Part shown: piece after piece, positions 22,193-23,397 of the stretch
Position numbering within the stretch: the first letter of the stretch is position 1
Layout: every line of letters starts with the position of its first letter
DNA from: Chloroflexota bacterium
Lineage (GTDB): Bacteria > Chloroflexota > Dormibacteria > Dormibacterales > Dormibacteraceae
Direction of reading: 5' to 3'
DNA: 64,000 nt
Assembly: GCA_005883575.1 (NCBI GenBank)
Contig: VBFH01000030.1
Coordinates: forward strand, 62,001-126,000
Notes under the pieces: model-generated
What the model was told of the DNA's origin: nothing
Database searches by the model: none
What the model saw: only the letters and a program-made list of their open reading frames with translations
Program-made: the position numbers and the translations under genes

Positions 22193-22726
22193 TTACGCTG
22201 CCTCCAGTTTTGTCTTGTACGCGTTCAGCACTCCCAGGAGTTGCTGAAGCGGGGTTTGCATGATTCCTACAAGCTGACCGACGGGCGATTGCAGTGTGCC
22301 CATCAGCTGGGCGATGAGCGCTTCGCGAGACGGCAGGTCGGCCAGCTGCTTGACCTGGTCCTGCGTGAACACGCGACCCTCGACCAGGCCGCCCTTGACG
22401 TCGAGCTTCAACCGGGTGGTCCGGACCCAGTCGTTGATCAGCTTCGAGGGGAGGCTCAGGTCGTCGTATCCGAACGCGATCGCGACAGGTCCCTCGAGCT
22501 CCGACTGGAGCGCGCTCACGCCGGCTGCCTCGGCCGCGCGCCGGGCCAGCGTGTTCTTGATGACCCGGTACTCGACGTCGCCCGTGCGCAGCTTGCCGCG
22601 TAGGTCCTGGAGTTGGGTGACGGTCAGACCGCGATAGTCGGTCAGGAGCGCGACCTTTGCCTTGCGCAGCTTTTCGGTCAGCAGCTCGACCTGCTCCGCC
22701 TTCTGTTCTTTGCGTGCCTTCGGCAA
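22193..22726 (-). CDS. rplJ: 50S ribosomal protein L10
   Basis: This 177-residue protein anchors L7/L12 dimers to the ribosome and commonly represses its own operon by binding the leader. The TTG at 22726 ([13 protein letters not shown]) is chosen because AGGGAGGG lies 8 bases upstream and the family starts here; in-frame codons further upstream would translate the leader structure. The body shows [20 protein letters not shown] and FGYDD blocks. The C-terminal helix that binds L7/L12 is present. Confidence 0.95.
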
Positions 22727-22857
22727 ATAAAAAACCCTCCCTGCCCCGATTTCCATCGTCAAGGCAGGAAGGATCCACGTGTCCTTCACTTACTGGTGCC
22801 TCGGTAGGAAATTAAGCCGGCTCGCGCCGGCGCCTACGGTCTAGGGCAGGCCGCTGA
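22727..22857 (-). promoter_or_regulatory. L10 leader RNA upstream of rplJ
   Basis: The 131-bp leader has the features I associate with the bacterial L10 leader. GACCGTAGG pairs through GTAGG with CCTAC in TTTCCTACCGAGG, and the enclosed hairpin has the stem GCCGGC/GCCGGC closed by a GCGA (GNRA) tetraloop. It ends in a second hairpin carrying the Shine-Dalgarno sequence. L10, probably with L12, would bind here to lower rplJ-rplL expression. The assignment is from memory of the family's pattern, not a covariance search. Confidence 0.7.
22729..22772 (-). terminator. Terminator-like hairpin covering the rplJ Shine-Dalgarno
   Basis: CCTTCCTGCC pairs with GGCAGGGAGG (one G-U wobble) and is followed directly by six T. 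The 3' arm contains the GGGAGGG ribosome-binding site of rplJ, so the same stem could terminate transcription or hide the ribosome-binding site. It overlaps the L10 leader. Confidence 0.6.
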
Positions 22858-23397
22858 TTATACGTGAGACCTTTCCCAGTCCTTGCGCAGAAGCTCGGTG
22901 AGCACGTGGTCGTGCCACTTGCCGTCGATGAAACGGTCGCCCGTCCACCGCCCGACCTCCTTGTAGCCGGCGGCCTTCTGCGCCCGAGCGCTGGCCTCGT
23001 TGCCTTCGAGGTACCCGGACTTGAGCTTGCGGAGTGGGAGCTGAGTGAATGCGTAAGCGGCGCGGAGCTGCATCAGCTCACGGGCCAGGCCTTTGCCCCA
23101 AGCGCTCTTGTCTCCGATGACCGTCCCGGTGGTGCCGAAGCCATTCTTCCAGTCGATGCTGACGATGCTGGTCCCGCCGACGGTCCGACCTTCATGCTCG
23201 ACCACCCAGAAGATCGCATCCGGGTCGCGTGCCATTCGGTCGAGGAACTCCTTCTCGAAGTCGATCGAGGGCGGGTGGCGCAGCTTGATGAAGCGCGTCA
23301 CCTCCAGGTCTTCGAACCACGTGATCATCGATTCGGCGTCGTCTGGCCGTGGCGGACGCAGCCTCACGAGCTTGCCCTGAATCACCGGTCCGTACAT
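22858..23397 (-). CDS. GNAT acetyltransferase, RimJ/RimL-like
   Basis: This 179-residue Acetyltransf_3-type GNAT has the opening GKLVRLRPPRPDDAESMITW. The central beta strands include IGDKSAWGKGLARELMQL, whose WGKGLARE forms the acetyl-CoA pyrophosphate loop, and a C-terminal NEASARAQKAAGYKEVG motif is shared with RimJ/RimL and similar enzymes. It lies between rplA and rplJ, a place where no acetyltransferase is normally found. RimL in E. coli acetylates the N-terminus of L12, so L7/L12 is a possible substrate here, but that is inference from position and family. The ATG start at 23397 is well placed. Confidence 0.82.
   Translation of the reverse strand: MYGPVIQGKLVRLRPPRPDDAESMITWFEDLEVTRFIKLRHPPSIDFEKEFLDRMARDPDAIFWVVEHEGRTVGGTSIVSIDWKNGFGTTGTVIGDKSAWGKGLARELMQLRAAYAFTQLPLRKLKSGYLEGNEASARAQKAAGYKEVGRWTGDRFIDGKWHDHVLTELLRKDWERSHV

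Follow-up and report, generated by a model that had tools for sequence, protein, structure and literature searches.

A predicted L10 leader switch whose terminator hairpin contains the rplJ Shine-Dalgarno sequence in Dormibacterota-like bacteria

In a stretch of 64,000 nucleotides from a Chloroflexota bacterium (GCA_005883575.1, contig VBFH01000030.1; hereafter the window), the leader of rplJ probably forms a four-segment RNA switch of the Bacillus subtilis type, by which rplJ-rplL would be autoregulated with a dual output, termination of transcription and occlusion of the rplJ Shine-Dalgarno sequence (SD). We infer the dual output because this leader combines the geometry of dual expression platforms (PMC2258182) with an L10 element and a logic of three helices as in B. 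subtilis. When free L10(L12)4 is low, segment 2 would pair with segment 3 during transcription to form an antiterminator, RNA polymerase would read through, and segment 4 with the rplJ SD would be single-stranded and translated. When L10(L12)4 is to spare, the complex would keep the kink-turn element closed (segments 1 and 2), segment 3 would pair with segment 4, and transcription would stop within the U-tract, immediately ahead of the start codon. In transcripts escaping termination, the SD would be covered by that same hairpin. Binding of L10(L12)4, termination and the translational block are deduced from what is known of the family and from the anatomy of the leader. The comparison of leader sequences, for its part, establishes an L10 leader, a hairpin with the SD in it, a conserved T-tract and an antiterminator that beats shuffled controls.

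The gene order on the minus strand of the window is rplA, a GNAT-family acetyltransferase gene, the leader, rplJ and rplL, with the following features.

24205-23474, minus strand: rplA
23397-22858, minus strand: GNAT-family acetyltransferase gene (PF13302)
22857-22862, minus strand: candidate -10 box TATAAT of an rplJ promoter, overlapping the acetyltransferase stop
22845-22848, minus strand: segment 1, UGCC, 5' strand of the outer L10-element helix (predicted anti-antiterminator), within the RF00557 match
22804-22842, minus strand: predicted L10-binding core with the AGACC bend, the GUAGG/CCUAC helix, the GCGA-capped apical stem and the UUAAU bulge
22782-22802, minus strand: segment 2, predicted 5' strand of the antiterminator, GAGGCA (22802-22797) plus GAAGGA (22787-22782)
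22761-22776, minus strand: segment 3, GGAUCCUUCCUGCCUU, predicted to form the terminator 5' arm and, alternatively, the antiterminator 3' strand
22732-22747, minus strand: segment 4, GGGGCAGGGAGGGUUU, predicted 3' arm of the terminator, with the rplJ SD
22735-22741, minus strand: rplJ SD GGGAGGG; best anti-SD duplex -10.4 kcal/mol over AGGGAGG (22742-22736)
22729-22734, minus strand: T6 tract, predicted terminator U-tract and spacer between SD and start
22193-22726, minus strand: rplJ (uL10), TTG start at 22726-22724; PF00466 95.5 bits, NF000955 176.9 bits
21792-22160, minus strand: rplL (bL12), the partner in the L10(L12)4 complex; PF00542, PF16320

The RF00557 (L10_leader) covariance model matches the window at 22864-22720 on the minus strand with 48.4 bits against a gathering cut-off of 44 (E 1.1e-4 in the window search), confirming the L10 leader proposed in a preliminary description of this DNA. 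The match covers model positions 1-138, that is, the full model including the terminal hairpin with its U-tail, and it is the single match in the window's own genome. It lies directly upstream of rplJ-rplL, with the PF00466 and PF00542 genes following, and contains both sequence features that are conserved in the L10 target, the bend and the UAA; the three-dimensional kink-turn nature of this bend is known from published papers. The L10-binding element spans 22848-22797 (minus strand), the parts of its core correspond to the kink-turn and the UAA motif of the L10 leader, and GGCA of segment 2 doubles as the 3' strand of its outer helix. The preliminary description had also correctly placed the rplJ SD GGGAGGG in the 3' arm of the terminal hairpin (22741-22735), the T6 after this hairpin (22734-22729) and the TTG start 8 nt past GGGAGGG (22726-22724). 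The hairpin itself, given there as 10 bp, is longer: in the centroid fold it stacks 16 pairs, G-U among them (22776-22761 / 22747-22732). Its stem ends 5 nt before TTG, or 8 nt if the U pairs are not counted, and the ribosome-binding site (RBS) lies in the 3' side of the predicted terminator at most 10 nt from the start, as in a dual platform. The GNRA-capped hairpin described earlier is present as the apical stem GCCGGC-GCGA-GCCGGC at 22831-22816; the loop is, however, GNRA in only 12/49 leaders, all from the window's family, and was rejected as a defining feature.

The leaders were compared within the window's family (f1) and the other families (f2-f4) of its Dormibacterota-like class. In an alignment of 49 leaders (the 51 of f1 and f4 minus G019 and G021, whose 5' part is divergent or missing), the L10 element is 95.3% paired, with 66 double-change cells against 20.7 in alignment shuffles, which do not allow for relatedness, and with both-side changes at 6 pairs, a number reached by 108/500 shuffles. 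The GUAGG/CCUAC helix is paired to 100%, with both-side changes at 2/5 pairs, and UUAAU or UCAAU is present in 49/49 leaders. In the outer helix 90.8% of the cells are paired, the first pair being unpaired in 18/49. At E<=0.001, RF00557 was detected in 43 of 110 class genomes, i.e., 34/42 f1, 9 f4, 0 f2 and 0 f3, and above the cut-off in 30/42 f1 genomes, under the stricter filters applied in searches of more than 40 genomes, by which weak matches are lost. At the f2 and f3 loci (among L132-L170) RF00557 has no match, and no T-run separates the SD from the rplJ start; these two families may have lost the L10 leader, or f1 and f4 may have gained it. A search for an L10 leader at E up to 10 in the genomes of four Actinobacteria-like loci gave one weak match below the cut-off. 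The Rfam model, like the window leader, ends in a hairpin with a U-tail, and a terminator in an L10 leader is therefore ordinary; the model as printed has no antiterminator and nothing on the rplJ SD, whereas the window leader has a predicted antiterminator and the rplJ SD in its terminal hairpin. The point of interest is rplJ's own SD within the terminator, not the terminator itself.

The region upstream of rplJ was examined in 90 of the 98 class genomes with rplJ (G012, G020, G085 and G095 lack the gene start; G048, G064, G068 and G070, all f2, are missing). An SD was found in 36/36 f1, 16/25 f2, 13/14 f3 and 15/15 f4 leaders, in 84/88 leaders of other Chloroflexota and in 38/39 further loci, and leaders in which none was found (including 9 f2 and 1 f3) were scored as being without the arrangement. 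A run of at least four T between SD and start is present in 35/36 f1 leaders, the exception (G026) having TTTATTT, and in 13/15 f4 leaders, compared with 0/25 in f2 and 0/14 in f3, the starts of G092 and G101 having been set by eye. Outside the class, where starts were partly chosen with a preference for those having an SD, such a run occurs in 0/88 other Chloroflexota leaders with RF00557 (the best 29 loci plus 59 chosen to spread over families, of 126 matched non-class genomes; one start, L220, is misassigned). It occurs in 1/39 loci from Dehalococcoidia, Clostridia and others (the 42 RF00557-bearing of 56 searched loci, minus L060, L067 and L073 with an unresolved start codon; some genomes may be in both this set and the 88), and in 0/30 leaders from the phylum of a Clostridium (the best 30 of 255 matched genomes; one start, L272, is unresolved).

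In the minimum-energy fold, a 3' arm holds 80% or more of the SD in 35/36 f1, 5/15 f4, 10/25 f2 and 2/14 f3 leaders, as well as in 25/88 of the other Chloroflexota and 12/39 of the further loci, so SD pairing in minimum-energy folds alone is not special. The T-run and the SD in the 3' arm are found together in 34/36 f1 and 4/15 f4 leaders and in 0 of the other four sets, the one outside-class leader with a T-run (L055) failing the stem criterion, and it is this combination that sets f1 apart. In the minimum-energy folds of f4 the antiterminator competes with the SD hairpin; when the hairpins of the 13 f4 leaders whose SD is embedded are folded alone, the SD is paired, and most of these hairpins contain a bulge or a small internal loop. 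Among the leaders sampled, only f1 and most of f4 show the arrangement. The 34/36 f1 leaders with the T-tract and the SD in the arm thus lend comparative support to the earlier suggestion that one stem could act both as an attenuator and as a translational lock.

In 50/51 f1 and f4 leaders the stem is followed by a first T-run of 4-7 nt, a count that partly rests on the finder, which searched for TTTT (6 runs were entered by hand); the alignment shows the runs directly. Such regular tracts would also be expected if the hairpin were an attenuator only, with the SD overlap as an economy of space and with no effect on translation once the polymerase has passed the U-tract, and in B. subtilis L10(L12)4 does work at transcription according to excerpts of PMC4538822. 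We consider this rather unlikely. The hairpin enclosing the SD has a predicted energy whose median over the 51 leaders is -22.6 kcal/mol, and occlusion on the full-length RNA would therefore be physically hard to avoid. Moreover, an attenuator does not require the overlap, for in the leaders sampled from other lineages the SD remains downstream.

The hairpin is conserved, and the singularity of its T-tract suggests that it also acts as a terminator, as the dual-output switch would require. In the 49-leader alignment the terminator helix is 90.9% paired, with 51 double-change cells against 18.0 in shuffles and both-side changes at 7/11 pairs, which 0/500 shuffles reach. In the window GGAGGNTTTTT has a single occurrence, where 0.06 are expected (5/100 shuffles contain at least one). 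Across the 3.6-Mb genome, GGRRGGN-T5-NNNTG (GGRRGGNTTTTTNNNTG) is found once, at rplJ, and its backward control pattern 0 times. On this single occurrence, the T-tract as a genome-wide habit of U-rich spacers was rejected, and a terminator is favoured. A simple terminator scan listed 2 sites against a shuffle mean of 2.7, no excess, and flagged the L10 apical stem on the same strand; the rplJ hairpin was not among the sites, presumably because its loop exceeds the 8-nt limit of the scan. Control of translation only, with an SD-sequestering stem as proposed for Escherichia coli and the T-tract as a mere unstructured spacer, would suit the location of the SD in a stem, the unstructured nature of U-rich spacers and the repression of rplJ at translation in E. 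coli (excerpts of PMC10931766). It has somewhat less in its favour than attenuation only and is improbable given that the SD-T5-start motif is unique in the genome, that a T-run between SD and start is seen in 0/39 f2 and f3 rplJ genes (an SD was found in 29), and that the RF00557 model ends in a hairpin with a U-tail.

The preliminary description missed the antiterminator: 22802-22797 and 22787-22782 pair with the 5' arm of the terminator, and since the antiterminator competes for this arm, the hairpin would be a switch. Across the compared leaders, the terminator 5' arm GAUCCUUCCUGCC has a possible pairing partner in the conserved GAGGCA and, in most of f1, in GTGAAGGAC as well. In f4 and in G040 and G041 the antiterminator pairing is of other sequence, e.g., AGGCGAG with CUCGCCU, a change that is expected if the pairing is what is kept. 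The outer L10 helix, the antiterminator and the terminator are mutually exclusive because their strands are shared, and their order is that of B. subtilis; the models thus predict three mutually exclusive structures of the B. subtilis type.

In the alignment the antiterminator is 91.2% paired with 22 double-change cells against 7.8 in shuffles, neither value being reached in 500 shuffles, and has both-side changes at 4 pairs, which 57/500 shuffles reach. When it is slid by -3 columns, covariation is 0.185 against 0.136 and double-change cells are 23 against 22, with only 47.7% paired; as the slid helix scores at least as high, the covariation score and double-change cells alone do not decide. 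A cross-clade test was made on 14 representatives, some of them related, with segment 3 placed by motifs (by hand for 12 leaders). Cognate partners were better than non-cognate ones both for the terminator (0/20,000 permutations; 5e-5 without G019) and for the antiterminator (permutation p 1e-4; 6e-4 without G019), and the cognate partner ranked first in only 4/14 and 3/14 rows, respectively, the effect lying in the mean. Shuffling of the segment 2-3 duplex energy per leader was not significant (p<=0.05 in 8/51, median p 0.32), 12 rows of this set (G028 and 11 f4) being without segment 2, with the antiterminator taken as the terminator, and other rows being misplaced.

The leaders were also followed in fold snapshots without protein. 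When segment 3 has just emerged, its mean pairing with segment 2 is 0.85, compared with 0.50 when segment 2 is shuffled; this early pairing lies at <=5% of 40 shuffles in 37/49 leaders, and segment 3 is held by segment 2 (>0.5) just after emergence in 47/49. At full length the terminator is predicted to have taken over in 28/49 leaders, window included, and the antiterminator to persist in 17/49, while the outer L10 helix hardly forms, exceeding 0.5 in 1/49 early and in 4/49 at full length. The terminator is predicted to be more stable than the antiterminator in 43/51 f1 and f4 leaders, window included. This stability, together with the predicted nature of L10(L12)4 binding here, could also fit a fixed terminator/SD hairpin that is not controlled by L10(L12)4 and sets, for example, the ratio of rplJL to the upstream transcript. 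Such a hairpin is very improbable, as the L10-binding core is kept with both-side changes and the antiterminator couples this core to the stem. Finally, the GTG in GTGAAGGAC, in frame with rplJ in the window, is hardly credible as the start of a leader peptide or of an extended rplJ: over the 24 leaders with GTGAAGGA its distance to the rplJ start spreads over frames 9/7/8 and a stop is present in 6/24 reading frames, and a leader peptide at this site was rejected for its non-conserved frame.

One of the nearest known systems to the switch proposed here is the B. subtilis rplJL leader, in which L10(L12)4 stabilises an anti-antiterminator and promotes termination; competitor oligonucleotides and mutations fit a three-structure model, and the logic is proven there (PMC4538822, Yakhnin et al. 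2015, in excerpts). Likewise in excerpts of that paper (PMC4538822), this leader has an L10-type kink-turn/UAA element followed by an overlapping antiterminator and intrinsic terminator, as well as an SD on the 3' side of that terminator's hairpin. That SD, according to the same excerpts (PMC4538822), serves a short leader peptide in Bacillus, and the rplJ SD is separate and further on, whereas in the window leader the SD in the terminator is rplJ's own and the U-tract, as a spacer, separates it from the start. A search of the compared leaders for a leader peptide of the Bacillus form found no conserved leader-peptide start. In riboswitch dual platforms, the terminator is so near the gene that the RBS falls in the 3' side of the hairpin (PMC2258182, Barrick and Breaker 2007), as in the window leader, but these are known for metabolite riboswitches (PMC2258182), and the ligand expected here is the ribosomal protein complex L10(L12)4. 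The E. coli rplJL leader shares the autoregulation by L10(L12)4 and a proposed sequestration of the SD and differs in being controlled at translation, no terminator being mentioned in the excerpts of PMC4538822 and PMC10931766. An L10 leader with the SD in the terminator, or any L10 leader of Dormibacterota, was not found in literature titles and abstract openings, among which few subscription papers were covered. The parts are known, and their combination in an L10 leader appears to be new.

L10 autoregulation is known to act on translation in E. coli and on transcription in B. subtilis, and here both outputs would reside in one hairpin. This lineage, from a little-known group of soil bacteria, would offer a natural case for studying the interconversion of the two modes and for measuring the contribution of each layer. 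When the L10 leader model is applied, the rplJ start should be taken into account, since the predicted mechanism depends on where the SD lies with respect to the terminator. The f4 leaders without an SD-start T-run, G092 (L121) and G093 (L117), have an L10 leader, a terminator and then a separate SD downstream of the T-run; beside their f4 relatives with an embedded SD, they possibly represent an intermediate state. On a tentative and rather doubtful reading, two families of the class have rebuilt the L10 switch so that the terminator and the rplJ RBS are one object and the U-tract doubles as the spacer. The rplJ gene would then have taken the SD-in-terminator position of the Bacillus leader peptide, the L10(L12)4 signal would be read twice, by polymerase and ribosome, and G092 and G093 against the 13 embedded f4 leaders would reflect a change within one family.

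In the region upstream of the leader, the acetyltransferase gene sits between rplA and rplJ in the window, and a similar gene is found upstream of rplJ at 24/36 f1 loci (one being a 24-residue match only) and 0/15 f4 loci, some upstream stretches being too short to tell. There is no evidence for a role of this acetyltransferase as a component of the switch. Its top-scoring solved relative is titled ribosomal-protein-S5-alanine N-acetyltransferase, and for this reason it possibly modifies a ribosomal protein. No promoter-like hexamer pair was found in the window stretch, where the conserved TATAAT has no recognised -35 box and lies 14 nt before AGACC. TATAAT is present 13-15 nt before the AGACC/AGACA motif in 27/36 f1 leaders, and in 32/36 when TATACT, TACAAT and TACGAT, variants chosen by eye, are included. 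TATAAT or TATACT is also present upstream in 15/15 f4 leaders, mostly at a greater distance.
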